Shown one piece after another: positions 5,935-45,445 of a stretch of 64,000 nucleotides of DNA; the stretch's first letter is position 1; every line of letters begins with the position of its first letter. Under the pieces are notes generated by a model, which saw nothing but the letters and a program-made list of their open reading frames with translations, made no database searches and was not told the DNA's origin. Source of the stretch: Spiroplasma clarkii (GTDB taxonomy: Bacteria > Bacillota_I > Bacilli_A > Mycoplasmatales > Mycoplasmataceae); contig NZ_CP024870.1 of the NCBI RefSeq assembly GCF_002795265.1, forward strand, positions 620,001 to 684,000, written 5' to 3'. The position numbers and the translations under genes were made by a program.

Positions 5935-8900
5935 ATGGAACCAGGGCTTAAAGAGCTTTTAGAAATGATGAATATTTACTTCACTGAAGCAGAAGAACAA
6001 GAATATTTCAGTGGAGCTAAAATCATTGAAAAAGTTTTTTCAAAAAGTAAAAATGAAATTAGGATTTATTTATCTCTTAATGATTTTTTGCCAACCCATA
6101 TTTTACATAAACTTGAATTTGGTTTAATTAAAGAAACAAATCATTTAAAAGCAAAAATAAATTTATGTATTGCTAATAAAAATTATACTCATGATTTAAT
6201 TTGAAGATACATTGAATATGTTAAGGATAACAAAGCAGAATATAAAACTGGAACTATCTTGTCACTATCTCCAGCAAGTGTTTTATATGATTGTGAAGAA
6301 AAACAAGTCAGTTTTGTAACTGAAACTGAAACTGAAAAAAATTTGTTGCTCCAACATTTACAATACTACCAAGCTAAACTTTCAAAATATGGTTTTGAAG
6401 GTGTTAGAGTCAGGGTGGCTGTTAGCGAAAATAAAAGTGATGAAATCTTAAATGCAGTTAATGAGAAATTTGTTCAACAAGCCCAACAAATAGTGCAAAC
6501 TCAACAACCAGTTTCAACTCAAACAAATACAACTAATAAGCCAAAACAGATTTTTAAAGCAAAAGTAGATTTGGGGAAACCTGATTATGTTTGTTTACAT
6601 GATTTAGAAGAAGATGCTATGAATGTCACAGTTCATGGTCAAATTATTTCACTAGTAATTAAAAAATCTAAAGCAGATCGCAAAATCTATACTGTGGGAA
6701 TTGCTGATAAAACTTCAGCAGTTAAAGCAGTTTATTTTCAAAGGGGTGCTGAAATCACTTTGTTTGATGAGGTAGATCATGAAACTGAGCAATTTTTTGC
6801 AACCTCTGGTAATGATAAATTAAAAACAGGAGATTGAGTTGCTCTAAATGGTAATTTTACTTACTCATCTTATGACAAAGAACATGTGTTTTACATAAAC
6901 AAATATTGTAAAATTGAATCAAAAAATTTAGAGATAATTGATGATGCAGTTGAAAAAAGAGTGGAACTCCACACACACACAAAAATGAGTGCTATGGATG
7001 GGGTTAGTGATGCTAAAGAATACATTCAAACTGCAAAAAAATGAGGTTGAAAAGCCATTGCCATCACAGACCACTTAAATGTTCAAACCTATCCAGATGC
7101 TTTTAGTGCTTTAAAAGAAGTTAATGCTAATGTTCCAGAGGCAGAACAATTAAAGTTAATCTATGGTAGTGAAATTGTGGTATTAGAGGATGAATATTGA
7201 ATTGTTAAAAACCCAACAGGACAAAACTTGAGAGAAGCTAAGTTTGTGATCTTTGACTTAGAAACAACAGGGTTGTCACCTGAGTTTGATGAAATTATTG
7301 AATTTGGGGCAAATGTTTATGATTATGCAACTGGAAAATCAAAAAGTGAAGATTGACTTTTTAAACCAAAGCAACCAATTTCAGACTTTACTACTGAACT
7401 TACTAACATTACCAATGATATGCTAGAAGATAAAAACTCAATTGAAGTTGAGTTTAAAAAAATTTATGAGTTAATTCAAGGAGCGATTTTAATTGCCCAC
7501 AATGCTAACTTTGACTTTAACTTTTTAGATGCACTAGCACAGCGTTTAAATTACCCACCACTAACAAATACTGTTATTGATACTATGACTTTGGCAAGAG
7601 CAATCTTGCCAAAGTTAAAAAACCATCGTCTAGGAACAGTGGCAAAGTATTATAATATTGATTATGATGAAAAAACCGCTCACCGTGCAGACTATGATGC
7701 TGAAGTATTAACTAGTATTTTTGAAAGAATTTGAAGTGAAGCTCGTCAAATTCAACCTGTTGATTTGGATACTGATTGAAATAAATTTATCAAGTCAGAT
7801 AAATTAACTGATGAAAATCACAGTCGAGTTAGAGGCTATCACTTACAAGTTTTAGCTAAAAACCAAGATGGTTTAAAAGACTTATTTAAGATAATTTCTT
7901 TTTCACATACTAAAAATTTCCTCAACTCTCCAAAAATTTTTAAATCTGAATTAACTAGATTAAATCAAAATAAAAATCTTTTGTTGGGTAGTGGTTGTTT
8001 GAATGGTGAAGTTTTTGAAAATGTTCGTACAGGAACAAAAGCTATGTTGCATAATACTATCAGAGCACTTGATTACATTGAAGTTCAGCCGTTAGCAGTC
8101 TACAAAAAACTATTACAAACTGGAGATTTAACTGAAACTCAATTAAAACAATTTATCAAAACAATTATTCAAGTGGCTGTTGAAGAAAATAAACTAGTGG
8201 TTGCAACCAGTGATGCTCATTATGTGAAACCTGAGGCAAAAATTGTTCGAGATATTTATATTAACACAAAAGGTCTGGGTGGAGTAGCTCACCCCTTATT
8301 TGATTATCGTCGTCGAGTTAAAGATAATCCCGATCAACATTTGCGTACCACTAATGAAATGTTAGAAGAGTTTAAGTTTTTAGAAGATAGTGAATTAATT
8401 CATGAAATTGTCATTACTAATCCAAACAAAATTGCAGATTTAATCCAAGGTGATATCAAACCTTTAAAAACTGAATTATATACTCCAAAAATTGACAATG
8501 TTGATGTCTTGTTAAGAGATGAATGTTATAAAAACGCTCACTTACTGTATGGGGAAAATTTACCCCAAATTGTTATTGATCGACTTGAAAGAGAGCTAAG
8601 TTCAATTATTAAACATGGTTTTGCAGTTATTTATTGAATTTCTCATTTATTAGTTAAAAAAAGTTATGAAGATGGTTATTTGGTTGGAAGCAGAGGTTCA
8701 GTTGGTTCATCATTTGTGGCAACCACTTCAAAAATAACTGAAGTTAATCCTTTAAAACCACATTATCGCTGTGAACATTGTTTATATTCAAACTTTGAAA
8801 CACCTGAAGAATACAAATGTGGTTATGATTTACCAGATTTACCTTGTCCAAATTGTAGTCACCAATTAATTGGTGATGGTCATGATATTCCTTTTGAAAC

Positions 8901-10380
8901 TTTTTTAGGGTTTAATGCAGATAAAGTACCAGATATTGATTTAAACTTTTCAGGAGAGTATCAACCCATTGCTCACAATTTTACAAAAGAAATGTTTGGA
9001 GAAGCAAATGTTTTCAGATCTGGAACCATTTCAACAGTTGCTGCAAAAATGGCTTATGGTTACACTATGGGGTATTTTGAGGCACAAGGGGTAGAACAAA
9101 AACGTCAAATTGAAGTTGACTGACTATCAAATCAAGCAGTTGGAGTTAAAAGAACCACTGGACAACATCCAGGGGGAATTATTATTTTACCAAAAGAATA
9201 TGAAATTGAAGATTTTACTCCAGTTAATTTCCCTGCAGATGATAGAAACAGTTCATGGCTGACAACTCACTTAGATTTCCACTCAATTCATGATAATTTA
9301 TTAAAAATGGATATTTTAGGGCATCAAGATCCTACTGCTTTAAGAATGCTCCAAGATTTAACTGGAGTTGATCCTCAAAAGATCCCAACCAATGATAAAA
9401 AAGTTTATGCATTGTTTTCAAATTTAACTAGTTTAGGTTTAAATCCAAGTCAAATTCTGGGTGAAACCACAGGAGCTATTGGGCTGCCTGAATTTGGAAC
9501 TTCATTTGTGCGAAATATGTTAAAAGAAACTCAACCAAAAACTTTTGCTGATTTAGTTCAAATTTCAGGGTTAAGTCATGGGACTGATGTTTATGTGGGA
9601 AATGCCCAAGAACTAATCAGTAGTAAAATTGCCAACATCTCATCAGTGATTGGTTGTCGTGATGACATTATGGTTTATTTAATGTCAAAAAAAATTGATC
9701 CCTCAACTAGTTTCAATATTATGGAAAGTGTGAGAAAAGGGAAAGGTCTGAGTCAAGACTGAATTGATGTTATGAAACAACACAATGTTCCAGAGTGATA
9801 CATTAATTCTTGTTTAAAAATTAAATACATGTTCCCCAAAGCTCATGCCACAGCTTATGTATTAATGGCTTATCGAGTAGCTTGGTACAAAATTTATTAC
9901 CCAGAAGAATATTATGCCACTTGATTTACTACCCGAACAGACTTTTTTGACTTAGAAGCTGTTATTGGTGGTTTAAGTGCAGTTAAGTTTCAATATGAAC
10001 AATTTGAGCAAAAAGTTAAAAACAAAGAAGCAGTTTCAAGTAAAGAAAAAAGTTTACAACCAATTTATGAAGTTTTAATTGAAATGTTTGAAAGAAATAT
10101 TTTTATTAAAAATATTGACATTAATATTTCTGATGCTGCAAAATTCAAAGTAGTTGAAGAAAATGGCAAAAAAGTTATTTATCCACCATTTAATGTAATT
10201 GATTCACTTGGTGAAGCTGTGGCAAATTCAATTGTGGCAGCCCGAGAAGAAAAACCAATTTCAAGTATCAAAGATTTAACTACACGTTCTCAGGTGACAA
10301 AAACTCAATTAGAAACTTTTAGAAAATTAAAAATTTTAAGTAATCTTAAAGAAGATGAGCAACTTTCATTTAACTTTTAA
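5935..10380 (+). CDS. polC: DNA polymerase III alpha subunit, PolC type
   Basis: The 1481-residue replicative polymerase of low-GC Gram-positives. Domains in order: N-terminal domain and OB fold (about 1-330), split PHP domain starting ELHTHT (H346, H348), inserted DEDD proofreading exonuclease starting FDLETTG (D441, E443), remaining PHP part, zinc finger with CEHC and CPNC, then the polymerase core with the catalytic pair in PDIDLNF (D1000, D1002). Length and order match PolC rather than DnaE. The start is ATG 5935 behind GAGGAGG. Many in-frame TGA codons encode Trp. A strong terminator follows directly. Confidence 0.97.
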
Positions 10381-10406
10381 ACAGCTTAGTGATAAAGCTG
10401 TTTTTT
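10381..10406 (+). terminator. Rho-independent terminator after polC
   Basis: ACAGCTT at 10381-10387 and AAGCTGT at 10395-10401 form a 7-bp stem with a 7-base loop, followed by six T residues. Confidence 0.85.
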
Positions 10407-10479
10407 AAATTAAACTATTTTTTTGTTTGTTTGATTAATTTTACTTTATAATTAATTTATACAAAATAAGGAGCAAAAC

Positions 10480-10971
10480 ATGTCAAAAGCACAAATTATC
10501 ACTAAGTATCAAACCCAAATTCAAGAAATTCTAGCACAAAACCATTTGCAATTGTTTGAAATTAACTGAATTTATGAGCATGAAACCAATGTACTCCAAA
10601 TTTTAGCAGAAAATAGTGATTCAAGTGTGACGAATGTTGAATTTGATAACTTGATTGCAGCCAATGAAGCTATTTCTGTTTTGCTTGATGATGACACAGA
10701 TTTAACTGAACCTTATGTTTTAGAGGTTGCTAGTGCTGGAGCTGAGCGCCAAGTTAAAAATAAAGAAGTGCTTATTAATAACATCAATAAATACTTTTTT
10801 TTAAAGACAAGCACCAGTTATGAAGGGGTTAGTGAATTCAATGCCACTTTAAATACTTATAATCCAAGTACTGAGGAATTTACTTTTAGCTTCTTTTTAA
10901 AAGGAAAACCAAAGAAAGCAATTCTTAAATTTACAGAAATAATTTTTATCCGATTTGCCATTAAATTTTAA
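10480..10971 (+). CDS. rimP: Ribosome maturation factor RimP
   Basis: A 163-residue factor needed for 30S subunit assembly. The family core EPYVLEVASAGAERQ (normally DPYxLEVSSPGxxR) sits near residue 85, followed by the C-terminal SH3-like domain. AAGGAG lies six bases before ATG 10480. RimP normally leads the nusA-infB operon; here it stands alone, with terminators on both sides, and nusA is not in the window. Confidence 0.9.
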
Positions 10972-33986: not shown

Positions 33987-34724
33987 ATGTTTAAAAATAA
34001 ATATGAGAAATATAGTAGCATGTTGTATGATGAAACTAAACCGTCTGGTACAAGTGTTGACGGTGATTTAGAATTTTATAAAAATATTTTATTACCAATT
34101 GAGGGGAAGGTTTTAGAAGCTGGAGTTGGAAATGGAAGACTGTTAGTTCCTTTTTTAAAATATAAAATAGATCTTGTTGGAGTTGATAAATCATCTGAAA
34201 TGTTAAAATTATGCAAGAACAATTTACAAATAAATAATTTATCTTGTGAATTGATTTGTGCAGACTTAAAAAATTATCTTGTTAAAAATTATTTTGAAAT
34301 GATAATTATGCCTAATGCAAGTTTTTGTTTAATCGAAAATAGAATTGATGCAAAAATAATTTTAAAAAACTTTTATGAATCACTTATTCATAATGGACAG
34401 TTAGTTTTGGATTTAATTTTTCCAGTTGAATTTGTTGCTGGTGCAAGTCATGAATATATTCATAATGTCAAAGGAATTAAACTATTAGTTAAAAATTATT
34501 CACAAACAATTAATTGAATTGAACAATACACAATTAATAAAATACAATATTTTATTAATGAAGAAATTCAAGAAGAACAAAATGTTAAACTGTCATGATA
34601 TGGAGTTGAAGAATTTAAATCCATATTAAATGAAATTGGTTTTAAAGAAATTGAAGTTGTCTTAAACTACAATAACAAAAAATTAATTAACTTGAAAACA
34701 GTTACATTTATTTGTAAAAAATAA
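33987..34724 (+). CDS. Class I SAM-dependent methyltransferase
   Basis: A 245-residue protein with motif I VLEAGVGNGRLLVPFL near residues 37-52 and the acidic strand-2 end VGVDKS. The following ADLKNYL and IIMPNASFCLI correspond to motifs II and III of the fold. Target unknown. It lies 12 bases after mtnN. Codon use is somewhat more A+T rich (ATA for Ile, ATTA-rich) than in the housekeeping genes, as in the next genes, which may mean later acquisition. Confidence 0.82.
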
Positions 34725-34742
34725 ATTGAGAGGGTTTTAAAA

Positions 34743-35663
34743 ATGAAAGAAATAAAAATCAAAAGTTTTGATGAAAAAGAATTACATACATCTTTATGAG
34801 ATGATGTTGAAAAACCAGTTGGAGTTTTACAACTTGTTCATGGAAGTTGTGAGCATGCCTTTCGTTATAATGATTTTGCTTCAACGTTAAATAAAAATGG
34901 CTGAATAGTTGTTGCCAATGATCACCGAGGACATGGAAAAACTGCAGACTTAGCCAACAATGAATTAGGATACCTTGCAGATGATGATGGTTGAAACACA
35001 ATCATTCATGATTTAAAAATTGTCAATGATTTTATTAAAAAAACATATCCTAATTTAAAAATTGTAATGTTGGGACATTCAATGGGAAGTTTTATGGCAA
35101 GAACATATCTAATTGATTATCCAGAAACTTTGAGCGGTTGTGTTTTAAGTGGTACTGCTTGACATAGTAAATTTGTTTTAAAATTCGGAACTAATGTTGC
35201 TAAGAAGAATCAAAAGAAATTTGGTCCAAAACATATTGATAAATATATTTGAAAATTAAGTTACAGACCATTAAATAAAAAATTTAAAAAAGAAGGAACT
35301 ACAGGTTGTGAGTGATTAAGTATTAATCAAGAAAATGTTAAAAAATTTAATGATGATGAACTTTGTGGACAAATTTTTACATCATCAACTTTCAAAGATA
35401 TGTTTAGTGGAATTTTATATAATCAAAATCAAAAGAATATTTTGAAAATGAATTCAAACACACCAATCTTGCTAGTTGCAGGAACCAATGATCCAGTAGG
35501 AGCTTATGGGAAAGGTGTAAAAAAAACTTATCAAGCGTTTTTAAAAGCTAACAAGAATGTTAAGTTAAAATTTTATGAAAATTTAAGACATGAAATATTG
35601 TTTGACAATGATAAAGATCTTGTTGAAAAAGATACAATTGCTTTCTTGAATTCTTGCTTATAA
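34743..35663 (+). CDS. Alpha/beta hydrolase, monoacylglycerol lipase-like
   Basis: A 306-residue serine hydrolase. The nucleophile elbow is GHSMGSF (near residues 113-119), the oxyanion region is QLVHGSCEH, and DHRGHGKT is typical of the lysophospholipase/monoglyceride lipase group. The catalytic Asp is likely in AGTNDPVG and His in NLRHEILFD. No signal peptide, so it acts inside the cell, perhaps on host-derived glycerolipids (inference). GAGAGGG is the ribosome site. Confidence 0.88.
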
Positions 35664-35687
35664 AAAATTAGTTTAAGGTAAAAACTA

Positions 35688-37751
35688 ATGGAAGGTTTAG
35701 TATTAAATAAAGCACAAGATGAAATTGTTAAAGCAATTAACTCAGGAAAAAATTTAAAAATAATTTCACTGCCAAAGTCCGGTAGGAAGACTGCAGTTCT
35801 TAAAGCAATTGGCAGTCAGAAAAAACTTCTTTATATATGATTTAATAATTTTAATATCAAACCAAATTTTTTGAAAAGATTTAGTGATCAAGAAAATATT
35901 CAAATCATAAATTTAAAAGATATTAATAGTGATACTAATTTTGAAGAGTATGATATTTTTTATTTTGAAAACATTAATTTTTTGAATAACAATAAATTAT
36001 TAAAAGAAGCTTTAGCAATTATAAATGGTAAATTGTTTAAATGTTTTGCAGACCCAAGGCCAGAGTTTGGTTGAAATAACCACATTGATGATGATTGTAA
36101 TAAAAGTTCTCATGAAAAACAAATAATTTTTTGTGCTAGTTTTCCAGTAAATATATCAAAAAAATCTAGTGGACTAATTGAGCAACAAAATTTAATATCT
36201 ATAATTGATGAGTTGATACCATATTTTACAAATTATTTTATTGAGATAACAATGAGTCAGAATTTTTGATTTTCAAAATATGATTTGGAGGTAATTAAAC
36301 AAATATATCCTGGAAAACTTGATCATCTCACAAGTGAAAAACAATTTAATCGCTTTAATATTCATAACAGTAATATATTTTCATACTCGAAACTAGAATC
36401 TAAAGAAACAATGATAGTTTATGACTTTGAAAATGTTAGCATTAAAAAAGTTAAAACAGAAGTTGGACATGATCAAGTCATTAACATAAATTTTTTCAAA
36501 ACACCAGAGAAAACAGTTGACTTTAAATATTATAATTTAGTATTATTGGTTGGCAAAAGTAATATTAGTAAACCTGAATATTTCAATAATTGATATAATT
36601 CATTTTTAGAAATTATTGGTTTGATTACAAATAAAATTTATATTGTTGGTAAATTTACAAAAGATGAGTTCATAACAAAAATTAGTAGATTAAAATCTGG
36701 CATGCTTCAAGGTCGAGAATCTAATTTAAAAATAATTGTTTCAAATCTTATTAATAAAAAGTTTTTGAAAAGTAATCTTGGTTATTTAAAATCACTTGAA
36801 CAATATTTAGAAATTAAAGATATAACAAAAGATGTAGAAATTCATAATGGAGTTAAGTTGACTGGATTAGAGCAGCTTAGAGATGAGTTTGAAAATCTTT
36901 TAAAGCAAAGCAATGAAATAATCATAAAACAAAAAGCTGTATTCTACTCTCAAATAATTGAGTTTTATATTTATTTCAGCACTATGAAATATAAATTAAG
37001 CAATATTAGTTTCAAAAGTAGTACAAATCAAGCAAATGCATTTAAATTTAATTTTGAAGAAGATGTAGAAGATTTTTTTGCAGCATTAAATGACAATTCA
37101 AACAATTGAATTGCAAAAATCACAAAAAATATAGATCAAAATGACAGTAGTGAAAAAAATAAAGTTGCTAATATCCAAAAAGCTTATGAAAAAATCAAGA
37201 GATTTTATAACAGAAGCAGTGAAAGTATTAAAAATTCAATTTCAAATTCACTAGTTGAAACAAATAAATTTAAAAATGTTTTTTTGCAATCTAGCAATAT
37301 TGAGTATCACAAGAAATGTTTAAGCAAAATTGGTAAGTTTCATGTCTCAGGAGAAATTGATTTCATTGACTTAGATTCAAATAAAATTTTTGAGTTGAAA
37401 GTTAATAAAGAATCTAAATTGTGTGCTGTTGAGATAGATGAATTTAAAACAGCTGAAATTTTACACAATTGCTTAGAATCAACCAAAAGTCCTAAAAAAT
37501 CCCAGATTGAAATTACTGATAAGGTAAGTATAAAAAATTTTGCTGGAGTTGTGCAACTGATTTTATATGCAATGAGTAACTTGGAGGACAATGGTGATAA
37601 TTTTTCAAAGCTAAGTCTTTATCTAGTGGAACTTTACACCCCAAGTATTTGGAGTGTAAAAATTAATTCATACTCTAATTTAACTAAGATTTCAATAATT
37701 TTAGAAAGATACATTATGACTTACATTTTAAGAAGATTTTGAAATATGTAA
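35688..37751 (+). CDS. Decayed UvrD-like ATPase domain joined to a RecB-type nuclease domain
   Basis: A 687-residue protein. The N-terminus LNKAQDEIVKAI resembles the UvrD Q-motif, followed by LPKSGRKT (28-35) in the Walker A place but without the normal GKT glycine. IFYFENINFL (90-99) sits where UvrD has VDEFQD, and FKCFADPRPEFGW (117-129) where it has FVVGDxxQSIYxW. The motor motifs therefore look decayed. The C-terminus has a PD-(D/E)XK pattern that looks intact: H541, D558 in GEIDFI, E569 and K571 in FELKV, and Q623/Y627 in QLILYA, the RecB-family QxxxY. The middle is helical and unrecognised. Possible roles are DNA repair or defence against foreign DNA (inference). Codon use is richer in ATA than in core genes. 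Confidence 0.6.
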
Positions 37752-37832
37752 AATTTTTTTTCATATTTCAATTTCCATAAATAATCACAAAATCTAGAAT
37801 ATAATTATATTAAAGAAAAGGAGTTGTATTTT

Positions 37833-38078
37833 ATGGAAAAATTCTCAAAACAACAAGTTGGTAACCTAGTAAATATGTTAGATGGTTATATGGCTAATGG
37901 GGGACACCACTTAAATGTCAATGTATTACGTAGAGAGGTTTTAAGAGATGCACAAGCCCATCCAGAAAACCACCCACAATTAACAATTAGAGTTTCTGGA
38001 TATGCAGTTAACTTTGTTAAATTAACAAAACAACAACAAGATGAAGTTATCTCAAGAACTTTCCACGAATCAATGTAA
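37833..38078 (+). CDS. Small soluble protein, 81 residues
   Basis: A short, charged protein ([20 protein letters not shown] at its start) with histidine-rich GGHHLN and AHPENHP segments. No transmembrane segment. AAGGAG at 37818-37823 points to ATG 37833; an in-frame TTG at 37824 is too close to it. It has a strong ribosome site, its own gap upstream and a terminator downstream, so it is probably expressed alone. I do not recognise it; the HxH-rich part could bind metal (guess). Confidence 0.75.
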
Positions 38079-38092
38079 TTTATGATATTATA

Positions 38093-38143
38093 AAAATCAT
38101 CTTCAATTCTTAGTTTGTTTAGCTAAGAAATAGGTGATTTTTT
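38093..38143 (+). terminator. Large terminator hairpin after the 81-residue gene
   Basis: Outer arms AAATCA and TGATTT enclose an inner stem TTCTTAG/CTAAGAA, followed by a T run. Confidence 0.7.
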
Positions 38144-38184
38144 CTTAATTTTATAACAATCACACAAAAGCGAAAGGTGTTATT

Positions 38185-39318
38185 ATGTCAAATTATCAAA
38201 ACAATTATTATATTCCTAAAAGTCTGCAACAAGGTTTCACAACAAATCCAGAAGTCTTTTCATATGATGGTATCCAGATCTTAGAACACAAGAGTTTGGA
38301 TTTCAAATTTAATTTAGCTTTTACTAACCAAAATCAAAGTCAAAACCAGTTAAATGTGGATTTTGAGGAATTTTGTAAAACTAATATTGACCCAATTTTT
38401 AAGAAAATAAGTCAACAAAATTGACAAGGGGATTTGACCAGAGATGAAGTGCTTAAATTAGCTAAGTTTTACTTAATAAATTACTTAAGAAATCCAAGTT
38501 GATTAAAATTATTGGCAAATGACGAAAAGAGATGACACAAAGCCATCAGTGAAGCTTTGAATTTAGATATAAAAAAAGCAAATAATCATTCAATTAACTA
38601 CAATGATTTTCAAATACCTGTGGTTACACAGTGATTTATGGAGAAGACAATTTTTAACTTTTATTATTTGGACAAACCAGTCACTTTTTTCTCACCAGCA
38701 AACTTAATGACCCAAATTCCCTTTGAAGCCTTAGAAGATGGAAAAGAATCGGTCTTTGATCTAGTTTTTGCCAAATCAAAATACACTCCATTTGCCTTGC
38801 TTTCTCATGTTTGTCCAAATCAAGTGCTGATTATTAGTTCACTTGAAATTTATGAAATATATCATAGCACAATCTCACAAATGTTGAGTGGCAAAGGTGA
38901 ACGTCCAAAAACAGTGTTTAATTACTTTGGCTATGACCAAGGTGTAGGTTTTGAGCAACCCAAAGTTTTAGCAGAAAACAAGCAGCCAATCAAAACCTCA
39001 GCTTTAACTGATAAATTTAATTATAAAACCAAAGTTTTTAGCCCAAAAAATAGTGCAGCCTATATTGGTGCTTTAATTGCAGCAGTCGGTAATGCAACTT
39101 GTATTTTTACAAATAAATCAGAAATGAAACAGTTTTTACAAGGATTAATTTCAGACTATGAATTAATTGAAAATTGAATTATTGAATGTGAAAAAACAGG
39201 TAAAATCTTTAATGATGAAATCATTCGCAATAACTTGCTAAGTGAGTATGCAATTTGAAAAACAACCCAAATAACAACAATTAAAGAACTTACAAAGTTT
39301 AAGATGGATTTAAAATAA
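38185..39318 (+). CDS. Hypothetical protein, possibly DUF4238-like
   Basis: A 377-residue soluble protein. The opening NNYYIPKSLQQGF followed by VFSYDG, and LAKFYLINYLRNPSW near residue 100, resemble the HYxPxFYLxxF...YD and FxxxxxxRxP pattern of DUF4238 proteins; this is a weak match by eye. The C-terminal half contains ISSLEIYEIYHSTISQ and KNSAAYIGALIAAVGN. ATG 38185 follows GAAAGGTG. A terminator follows directly. Function unknown. Confidence 0.7.
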
Positions 39319-39350
39319 CAAGCAACTCAGTGGTGCTTGTTTTATTTTTT
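39318..39350 (+). terminator. Terminator after the 38.2 kb gene
   Basis: ACAAGCA (39318-39324) and TGCTTGT (39334-39340), nine-base loop, T-rich tail. Confidence 0.85.
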
Positions 39351-39429
39351 TTAAAAAAGTTTGGAAAAATTCTTAATATCTTTGAGCAAAAGTGTGGTTA
39401 TTGATTATAATAAATATGAGGTATTAAAA

Positions 39430-39843
39430 ATGAAACAAGGTGATCAAAAGCCATTAAGAGAGGTAAAAATACTTAAAAAGATTAAAAAGCAAATTGAATT
39501 AGATTCACTTGAAACTATGGGTGTAGAACAAGAACAATTGGTAGAGACATTTTTAAAAAAAGTCAGTTCTATTACAAAAAATGGTGAAAAAGTGAACTTC
39601 AATTTTGCTTACCTTTATTTAGAGGCTAAAATTATTAGGAATTGTGGTGAATGTCAAAATAATTATTATAATGAATTACAAACCAATTTATCTGATGAAC
39701 AGTTAATTAATTTACTAACTACAAGTCAAAATATCACTCACTGTTTAAATTGTAATAACCATCAGGTTCCAAACCACAAGTGCAATTGGTGTTATCAAAC
39801 TATGTGTAACAGCTGTTGTCCAAATTATTTAATTAAAAATTAG
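39430..39843 (+). CDS. Cysteine-rich zinc-ribbon-like protein A
   Basis: A 137-residue basic then cysteine-rich protein. The first half is charged and helical; the second has NCGEC (near 78-82), HCLNC, CNWC and CNSCC, enough for two zinc sites. ATG 39430 is chosen because GAGG eight bases upstream fits it; an upstream in-frame TTG at 39361 has no ribosome site. It is followed 12 bases later by a paralogue that shares NCGECQ and HCLxC, then by a phosphatase gene. I recognise no family. Confidence 0.75.
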   Translation: MKQGDQKPLREVKILKKIKKQIELDSLETMGVEQEQLVETFLKKVSSITKNGEKVNFNFAYLYLEAKIIRNCGECQNNYYNELQTNLSDEQLINLLTTSQNITHCLNCNNHQVPNHKCNWCYQTMCNSCCPNYLIKN

Positions 39844-39855
39844 TTGAGGTGTCAT

Positions 39856-40287
39856 ATGAAAAACAAAGATTATGAAAATCTAAGTAATGCTCTAAAGGAA
39901 CTCTCCATAGAGAACAAGACTTTAGAAATTACAAAAGAGTACTGGCAAGAACTTGAAAGTGTAATTCTTAACACTTACATAAATAAAAAAAATAGTAAAT
40001 GTAGTTTTGAAAACCCTTTAAGAAATTGTTACCAAATTATTACAAAAAATTGTGGTGAATGTCAAAAAATTAATAGTCCGATTTTTAATAATGACAAAAT
40101 TGATGACCAAACAATGTTACTCAATTTTGAAAAAATTGAACTAGAAGATTTGTCAAAAGAAGTTTTTGCAATGATTCATTGCCTGTATTGCGACATCCAT
40201 TTTCCTAACGAACAACTAAGTTTATCAAACTCATATAGTTGTTCAAATTGTCAGCCAAAATTATATGACAAGATAATTACCCAATAA
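39856..40287 (+). CDS. Cysteine-rich zinc-ribbon-like protein B, paralogue of A
   Basis: A 143-residue protein. It shares with the preceding gene the order: helical head ending NTYINKKNSK, then ITKNCGECQK, then MIHCLYC, then a final CSNC. GAGGTG overlapping the upstream stop gives ATG 39856. The two look like an old tandem duplication that has diverged. The conserved CxxC pairs suggest structural zinc. A role with the next gene, a protein phosphatase, is possible only from position. Confidence 0.75.
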   Translation: MKNKDYENLSNALKELSIENKTLEITKEYWQELESVILNTYINKKNSKCSFENPLRNCYQIITKNCGECQKINSPIFNNDKIDDQTMLLNFEKIELEDLSKEVFAMIHCLYCDIHFPNEQLSLSNSYSCSNCQPKLYDKIITQ

Positions 40288-40301
40288 AAAGGAGAGTTAC
40301 T

Positions 40302-40739
40302 ATGAGAAAAATAACAAAAAATCTATATTTAGGAGATCAACATTCAGCTCCAACAGATACCAAATTGCGTTTGAGTTGTGCTGAAGAAATTTATTTTGAT
40401 GTAGCACCTGATCAAAATACCTCTAAGTTTCATGATGGTAATGTGATTTATTACAAATATGCAGATTATCCTCAATATGAAAAAATGGATATTGGTCTAA
40501 TTGATGACACTATCAAACAAATAGAAAAAAACATTGCTAATAAAAAGATCTATGTGCATTGTTTATGAGGTGTTAATCGCAGTGCCTCAATTGTATTTAT
40601 GTATATGGTGCGAAACAAATTAATTGGGGGTAATAGTTATGCTACTGCTCAAAAAGAATTTTGAAAAATCTATCCAGATCATGCCCCCAATCCAGGGTGA
40701 AAGATCTTTTTACAAGAAAAATACCCATACAATTTTTAA
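40302..40739 (+). CDS. Dual-specificity (tyrosine/serine) protein phosphatase
   Basis: A 145-residue cysteine phosphatase. The signature HCLWGVNRS (C87, R93; its Trp is TGA-coded) matches HCxxGxxRS, and the start KITKNLYLGDQHSA matches the DSP family opening (I..xLYLGxxxxA). The general acid Asp is likely in YKYADYPQ. AAAGGAGAG precedes the ATG. It is 17 bases before a ROK kinase. Substrates unknown; few such enzymes are described in mollicutes. Confidence 0.88.
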
Positions 40740-40756
40740 TAAAAGGAGAAATGAAA

Positions 40757-41608
40757 ATGAATTTATCAATTGATATTGGGGGAACCAAAATTAGGTTTGC
40801 CCTAGTTAAAGACAATCAAGTAGTTAAAAGCTCAGAGTTTTTTAACAATGTAAAAAACTATAAAGAAAACATTCTTAAAATCAAAACAACCTTTGACCAA
40901 TGAGCAGAAAAGGTTGAGTTTATTGGGATTGCTTGTCCAGGCCCACTTGACATTAAAAGTGGGAAAATTTATAACTCGCCAAATCTAGAAGATTGAAACA
41001 ATAAGAATTTAAAAGAAGAATTTGGTTCAGTTTTTCAAGTTTGAGACATCCGTATTAACAATGATGCCAATGTGGCAGCTTTAGGGCAATTTAATGTCAG
41101 ACATGATTTACACTCATTGCTTTACTTTACAATTTCTACAGGAATTGGTTGTGGAATGATTATTGATCAAAAAATTTATAATGGTTTTACAGGTACAGCT
41201 TGTGAGATTGCAAATTCTTTTCCAGATTTAGATTTTGGAACTGCTAAATCAGGAATTGAATACTTCGCTAGTGGGAAAAATATTGCTTTAAAATTACAAA
41301 GTCTTGGAGTTTCAGTCAAAGACACCAAAACAGCTTTTGAAATGTACTATGCAAAAACAAATCAGATAGTTAATGAGTATTTTGCTAAAATCAAGCAAAA
41401 ACTTGTGGTAATGTTTGCCACTGCTATTTATTTTTTAAATCCTGAAATAGTTGTGGTTGGTGGAAGTGTAGCAATGCACAACCAAGAGTGATTTGAAGAA
41501 ATTTTTGCAGAGGTTATTAAAGTAACACAAGATATTAATTACCAAACAAAGTTTGAATTTGCTAAAGATCTTGATGAAAGTACATTTATCGGTTGTGCAA
41601 ATCTATAA
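40757..41608 (+). CDS. ROK-family sugar kinase lacking the zinc motif
   Basis: A 283-residue kinase. Phosphate-binding motif SIDIGGTKIRFALV is at residues 4-17; GIACPGPLD and NNDANVAALG (catalytic Asp) follow, then FTISTGIGCGMII. The zinc-binding CxCGxxGCxE segment of most bacterial ROK kinases is absent: the region reads GTACEIANSFPDLDFGTAKSG with no cysteine cluster. ATG 40757 is preferred over ATG 40751, which lies too close to AAGGAG. It probably phosphorylates glucose or a hexosamine; the missing zinc motif makes the substrate uncertain. Confidence 0.88.
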
Positions 41609-44574: not shown

Positions 44575-44674
44575 GGTTAGTTCACTCATACAGTTAGTGT
44601 ATGAAAAGTTTGAAAAATAGTGTATAATATAAGTAGATTTATTTTAATATAAATCTTACAGGAGGGTGAGTTAT

Positions 44675-45445
44675 ATGTATTATGTATTACAAAATACAGA
44701 TGTTTTTTATGTTGTAGATCCAACCATGACAAAGTTGGGTGAATTTAATTCATTTGAAGAAGCTGAAGATTTTTGTGCATATTTAAATGATCAGTTGAGC
44801 AATAATCCAGCCTATGGACAAAAATTTTATCCAGTAGCAAACACAATGCCAGTTCAAAGCCAACAAGCCTGTCAACCATTTATGAACATGAATCAAATGA
44901 TGCCAATGCAACAAATGCCAATGCAATACCCTATGTATAATGATTTTAACCAACCAGCAGGTATGCCATTTGGTAGAGGAATCTCATATGGTAACATTAC
45001 AGTTAATTGCAGTGGACCTGGAGAACAACCAACTGTTGCACAAACTCCAGCACAATACACACATACTGCACCAGCTCAAGCAACAGTTGGTGGGGTTGTT
45101 GAAAAAATCATTGAAAAACCTGTTGAAAAAATAGTTGAAAAAATTGTTGAAAAACCTGTTGAAGTTATTGTTGAAAAAATAGTTGAAAAAATTGTCAAAG
45201 TTCCAATGGAACAAGTAGAAGAAGGTCCAATTAATTATTTAAAAGATGAATCTTTATCTACATCAAGTTCTTTAGAAAGACTAAGACCAAACAGAGGGTC
45301 TGCTATTAGAAATAGACCAAAAAGAGCACCAATTACTTCAAGAATTAAATTTAGAGGTAGAACACATGGTATATATGATGAAAACACAAAATCATGATTG
45401 ACTCCAACTGAATTAAACAATTTTATTTCAAAATTAGAGCAATAG
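44675..45445 (+). CDS. Unknown protein with YY-V domain, Met/Gln/Pro-rich linker and VEKIVEK repeats
   Basis: A 256-residue protein. N-terminal 40 residues (YYVLQNTDVFYVVD...) match the preceding gene's domain. Residues about 55-95 are Met/Gln/Pro rich (NMNQMMPMQQMPMQ). From about 145 to 185 comes a run of EKIVEK and EKPVEK units. The tail is Arg rich (RLRPNRGSAIRNRPKRAP). ATG 44675 is set by AGGAGG at 44661-44666. Linker-and-repeat proteins of this type occur in mollicute cytoskeletal and adhesion structures, so a scaffold role is possible (inference). Confidence 0.7.

Follow-up and report, generated by a model that had tools for sequence, protein, structure and literature searches.

A predicted RecB-type nuclease joined to a probable degenerate UvrD-like motor in a variable chromosomal region of a Spiroplasma-type mollicute

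AddA and RecB place a motor ahead of a RecB-type nuclease, and in the AddAB pair AddB joins a dead motor to a live nuclease. The AddB nuclease is flanked by the cysteines of an Fe–S cluster, three of which are C-terminal. RecB/Cas4-type nucleases cut DNA ends, flaps or single-stranded DNA, and GajB of the Gabija system has, to our knowledge, no RecB nuclease. Mycoplasma pneumoniae and M. genitalium have been described as lacking both RecBCD and AddAB (PMC3720892), systems whose distribution in bacteria was surveyed in 2005 (PMC1193525). In the part of the open-access literature covered by our searches we found no description of a mollicute family of helicase/RecB-nuclease proteins, nor, in open-access text, any paper treating Spiroplasma, UvrD and AddAB together.

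The window analyzed here is a stretch of 64,000 nucleotides (G000:C1:620001-684000) from the 1.56-Mb, single-contig genome of a Spiroplasma-type mollicute, in which TGA is read as Trp; genomes of its taxonomic family range from 0.7 to 2.2 Mb. The protein of interest, P0001, is encoded by an uninterrupted ORF (Table 1). Dinucleotide-matched random sequence would be expected to contain ~42 in-frame TAA or TAG codons (minimum 26 in 500 trials), and this frame has none. Its base composition by codon position is gene-like, with a codon score that is the lowest among 20 genes compared. The ORF is real and coding, and it matches exactly the span of the original prediction, with all 687 codons open under code 4. 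That prediction read P0001 as a possibly unnamed mollicute protein combining a degenerate UvrD-type motor with a conserved-looking RecB-type PD-(D/E)XK nuclease, and profile alignment to an intact family supports it. P0001 is probably a diverged member of this helicase–nuclease family, motor-dead and carrying a predicted RecB-type nuclease that would be ATP-independent and probably active.

Table 1 Positions within the window of P0001, its predicted domains and motifs, and the surrounding variable region.
Feature	Position	Strand	Basis
Whole ORF, 687 aa, code 4 (TGA = Trp)	35688..37751	+	Open frame and codon composition
Predicted degenerate SF1A/UvrD-like motor region, aa 1-305	35688..36602	+	Profile match aa 4-54; low-confidence AlphaFold model, Z ~8
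Q-motif-like LNKAQDEI, Q10 invariant in family	35703..35726	+	Family alignment
Walker A remnant SLPKSGRKT: G to K30, K to R33, T to K34	35766..35792	+	Family alignment
Walker B remnant YDIFYFENINF: D, E, Q to E94, N95, N97	35949..35981	+	Family alignment
Probable motif III remnant IIFCASFPVNI, aa 146-156 (family LGDxxQxIY)	36123..36155	+	Alignments
Probable SFR-motif remnant ITMSQNFWFS (family R to W194)	36246..36275	+	Alignments
Region of motifs V/VI (YSKLESKETMIVYDF ... NLVLLVGKSNISK), register uncertain	36384..36572	+	One alignment, not reproduced in 74-row alignments
Predicted RecB/Cas4-like PD-(D/E)XK nuclease core, aa 531-659	37278..37664	+	Profile match aa 547-577; strand/helix order of model; weak Foldseek matches
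Putative catalytic motif FHVSGEIDFIDLDSNKIFELKV: G555, D558, E569, K571	37338..37403	+	Family alignment
~40-aa insertion, aa 577-615, absent from other members	37416..37532	+	Alignment
AGVVQLILYAM: Q623xxxY627	37542..37574	+	Alignment
Variable region between methyltransferase gene (33987-34724) and sugar kinase gene (40661-41608)	34725..40660		Other genes there in other genomes of the genus

P0001 is encoded within the variable region. The block upstream, which encodes a 571-aa protein, a HAD hydrolase, a nadD-type fusion, a nucleosidase and the methyltransferase, is wholly or partly present in 14 other genomes of the genus compared, and a similar sugar kinase gene lies downstream of the variable region in several of them. 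Across the genus the region holds PTS and glucosidase genes, pyruvate-dehydrogenase genes or transporters, and in one genome (G018) a type IV-restriction-like helicase, a cytosine methyltransferase and a GmrSD-like protein. The flanking genes had been called metabolic. This describes the conserved backbone correctly; P0001 itself, however, lies where gene content varies across the genus. Several other proteins encoded in the window drew our attention. An 84-aa ORF (37824-38078, +) matches the glycine-radical domain (PF01228, E 7e-22) and resembles a free-standing spare part for pyruvate formate-lyase. A 377-aa protein (38185-39318, +) has a DUF4238 match below threshold, and two adjacent short proteins of 160 and 147 aa (39361-40287, +) share a cysteine-rich NCGECQ ... 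HCLxC pattern with no Pfam match. Outside the variable region, a protein at 44666-45445 (+) carries a low-complexity repeat of the VEKIVEKPVEKI type.

Direct searches with P0001 gave no usable match in Pfam, PADLOC, NCBIfam, PHROG or PDB sequences. Weak matches to TryThrA_C and AFTRAX fall within its helical middle and were taken as chance. No relative was found in phages and plasmids (tblastn), in IMG/VR and GTDB contigs (pattern searches), in the genomes of 99 relatives, in the 20 genomes of the genus, or in 320 genomes of the order (BLAST/phmmer); the one weak match in the order (G126, E 0.005) was rejected as a thymidine kinase. P0001 is a singleton in the sampled genomes.

A likely relative of P0001 came to light through the equivalent variable region of another genome of the genus, G014, which encodes an intact 699-aa protein, P0002 (L047:2943-5039), composed of a UvrD-like helicase and a C-terminal RecB/Cas4-like nuclease. 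Its motor motifs are intact (GTGKST, IIIDEAQD and GDADQNIYRF), and its C-terminus reads GVASCFD...WDFK...QLLVYK. The nuclease of P0002 has a Ser where the first catalytic Asp is expected (GVASCFD...WDFK) beside an intact motor, a mirror image of P0001. The family of P0002 is patchy in mollicutes: 8 of 60 genomes searched in the taxonomic family have a member, as do 32 of 298 in the order. It also occurs in many Clostridia. Its motor profile matches PcrA/UvrD, FBH1, AddA and RecB chains in the PDB as well as the UvrD Pfam models, and the C-terminal part of an intact member gives weak matches to Cas4 (E 0.001) and PDDEXK_1 (E 0.006). PDDEXK_1 (PF12705) does not match P0001; with a score of 16.9, even an intact relative stays below the gathering cut-off of 22. 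In several members a DEDDh exonuclease is either fused to the protein or encoded by an overlapping gene (RNase_T in L075; a DEDDh model in the neighbor of the L101 member). One member, an 846-aa ORF (L059/L072), has an N-terminal extension that, by eye, resembles an RNase H1/caulimovirus-type hybrid-binding domain. One full-length member of 684 aa with motor and nuclease motifs present was found on an IMG/VR contig (L188:4989-7043, +), which may derive from an element such as a large eukaryotic virus; neighboring ORFs encode asparagine-rich and repeated paralogous proteins. The host genome of P0001 holds a second family copy (C1:1032581-1034627; L105 ~8600-10650, -), with an intact Walker A, which is split into two ORFs and adjoins genes for a cytosine methyltransferase and a GmrSD-like protein. 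Broken members were also seen in G012 and G291.

Pairwise BLAST and HMMER see no relationship between P0001 and this family, from which it differs at all but ~15–20% of positions, and the whole-length HMMER score is negative. Profile–profile comparison nevertheless yields two collinear matches, of aa 4–54 or 6–53 to the family start and of aa 547–577 to the nuclease core. The 16-member profile scored 34.6–35.5 (N-terminal) and 30.7 (C-terminal) against shuffle maxima of 18.0–26.5 and 20.5, and the 73-member profile 38.9 and 29.7 against maxima of 22.8 and 21.7 in 60 shuffles (p 3e-4 and 4e-3). With 27 members the scores were 37.8 and 28.4–28.8, compared with a best non-family score of 24.1 for the nuclease columns among 237 natural mollicute proteins. 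When 48 random member subsets were aligned with P0001, G32 of Walker A was placed in 100%, Walker B in 83%, and D558 and K571 in 98%. The collinear match to motor start and nuclease core that marks membership by descent is present in P0001, and on these profiles we consider it likely, short of proof, to be homologous to the family.

Comparison with the intact members indicates what the motor has lost. The family residues at positions 30 (G), 33 (K), 94 (D), 95 (E) and 97 (Q) are invariant in 16/16 and in 73/73 members, of which only 27, from profile and protein searches, count as independent for this contrast because Walker A/B formed part of the patterns that retrieved the other 46, and all five are replaced in P0001. 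The 27-member set leaves out one further member, removed by a text filter, whose Walker A (GAGKTT) is intact. Where active SF1A helicases (UvrD/PcrA) have Walker A GxGK[T/S] and Walker B DExxQ, P0001 reads KSGRKT and, at 94–97, ENIN. Of the losses foreseen by the original prediction, those of the Walker A glycine and of the DE pair in IFYFENINF are borne out by the family alignment, with the additional loss of the Walker A lysine, and the predicted Q motif aligns to that of the family. The Walker B register was recovered by four MAFFT methods (28 rows) and one of two 74-row alignments, though not by the '--add' alignment. S151 probably replaces the motif III Asp and, in two 74-row alignments, W194 the SFR Arg, at family positions that are invariant or nearly so; the register of motifs V and VI is uncertain. 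FADPRPEFGW had been proposed as the GDxxQ motif III, but most alignments choose IIFCASFPVNI and leave FADPRPEFGW as an insertion, with a few member subsets favoring the proposal. P0001 keeps Q10 and G32. Because the invariant motor residues that can be placed are replaced, the motor is predicted to be unable to hydrolyze ATP or to unwind DNA by the normal mechanism.

The nuclease region, by contrast, keeps the family pattern G-x2-D ... E-x-K. D558 and E569-x-K571, previously assigned to a RecB-family site, line up with the family nuclease residues. Their conservation in homologues had been set as a test; P0001 shares all three with the family, across which conservation is judged because P0001 is a singleton. 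The assignment of Q623xxxY627, which lies behind the insertion, is less firm: these residues line up with those of the family in 55% of subsets on average and in the 17-row alignment, but not in the 74-row alignments, which the insertion disturbs. H541 had also been listed as a nuclease residue, a role that does not fit the family alignment, where its position is not conserved.

Structure prediction was of low confidence, with a pLDDT of 35 without an alignment and a mean of 45 with 17 rows (AlphaFold). In the 17-row model the N-terminal 110 residues (pLDDT 52–70) run beta-loop-alpha, as in a P-loop domain, and aa 531–659 show the strand/helix order expected for a PD-(D/E)XK core. This model is not independent of the choice of register, because its 16 member rows were picked among 48 random subsets by motif register. 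The best Foldseek matches were XPB helicase, the Cas4-like ACE1, RecE and SSO0001, all with E >0.01. VIA-align placed aa 1–118 on many helicase RecA-like domains with Z up to 8.3, a generic level, and no UvrD-type chain was among the matches listed. The structural results are compatible with a RecA-like domain followed by a PD-(D/E)XK fold, without being decisive.

These observations bear on several explanations of P0001. Each profile match is weak if taken singly, as would be expected if P0001 were AT-rich but unrelated to the family and resembled its motifs by chance. We regard this as quite improbable, since the two matches occur in the right order and positions in a protein of the same length, both exceed all shuffles, and Walker B aligns between them in most subsets. 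The main rival to our reading holds that P0001 is a fading relic, its motor lost and its nuclease inactive or without a role, and that decay set in too recently to have closed the frame. Decay appears to be common in the family, because the second host copy is split and the G012 and G291 members are broken; the low codon score and the lack of any P0001 relative in the sampled genomes point the same way. Yet a protein that has diverged this far from the family without a frameshift or stop in 687 codons would need long selection for an open frame, and the loss of motor residues with retention of nuclease residues is selective rather than uniform decay. We therefore consider a relic unlikely.

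A dead motor with a live nuclease is also the division of labor seen in AddB, and P0001 could pair with a separate helicase–nuclease that is active, contributing a nuclease and a dead motor to a two-subunit end-resection machine. The cysteines of P0001 are at 119, 137, 149, 544, 579 and 595, and an AddB-type Fe–S cluster cannot form because none follows aa 595. The absence of a partner gene noted in the original prediction holds: P0001 has no addA-like gene next to it, and apart from the split copy no further family member was found in the genome. An AddB-type subunit is on these grounds very improbable, and the earlier term AddB-like stands as an analogy rather than as membership. AddB and RecC share with P0001 an inactive motor domain, and AddB a RecB-type nuclease, but P0001 is much shorter. 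AddA and RecB have the same motor–nuclease order, whereas P0001 is a single chain with a dead motor. Cas4 and Gabija were considered as identities for P0001 and not adopted. Cas4, RecE and ACE1 resemble it in PD-(D/E)XK residues and in weak profile and fold matches, but P0001 lacks Fe–S cysteines and carries a motor relic on the same chain, and neither CRISPR nor Argonaute genes were recognized near it. GajB models match the UvrD-like motor of the intact relatives, but no GajA was recognized next to P0001. The intact UvrD–RecB family of mollicutes and Clostridia (P0002; L100:7727-9844; L075:1441-4326) is closest in length, in profile matches at both ends, in nuclease G/D/E/K residues and, for P0002, in genomic position. 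P0001 departs from it in the loss of the residues of Walker A, of Walker B and, probably, of the SFR motif, in lacking a fused or adjacent DEDDh exonuclease, and in its ~40 extra nuclease residues.

We hypothesize that P0001, as a strongly diverged member of this single-chain family, folds into a protein whose former motor region may stay as a DNA-binding or docking module. Its C-terminal nuclease, which retains the residues for metal binding and catalysis, would cut DNA ends, flaps or single strands in a Mg/Mn-dependent, ATP-independent manner. Its gene probably either arrived in the variable region by acquisition or diverged there. As to the anti-phage function suggested in the original prediction, P0001 has no PADLOC match, and no defense gene was recognized among its neighbors (by eye and Pfam). 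Two of nine inspected family loci adjoin restriction-modification or CRISPR genes, namely the split host copy and a locus flanked on one side by cas1/cas2-like genes of type II and on the other by a DpnII/Dam restriction pair (L100:677-11619); the other seven have no obvious defense neighbors. A defense role is possible. More tentatively than its family membership, we suggest that P0001 may be a lone nuclease of a new kind, in which motor loss yielded an ATP-independent, DNA-structure-guided enzyme that selection has retained in a variable region, possibly acting against phages or plasmids.

Single-chain helicase/RecB-nuclease proteins occur intact, though patchily, in mollicutes, some of them accompanied by a DEDDh exonuclease, yet two mycoplasmas have been described as lacking RecBCD and AddAB. 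What is new here is P0001, a predicted motor-dead variant within a helicase–nuclease family that has intact-motor relatives in other mollicutes and in clostridia. P0001 is the only family member seen with a dead motor and a kept nuclease site, and therefore the use of a dead motor to a RecB-type nuclease, as in AddB, would be testable in one small protein.
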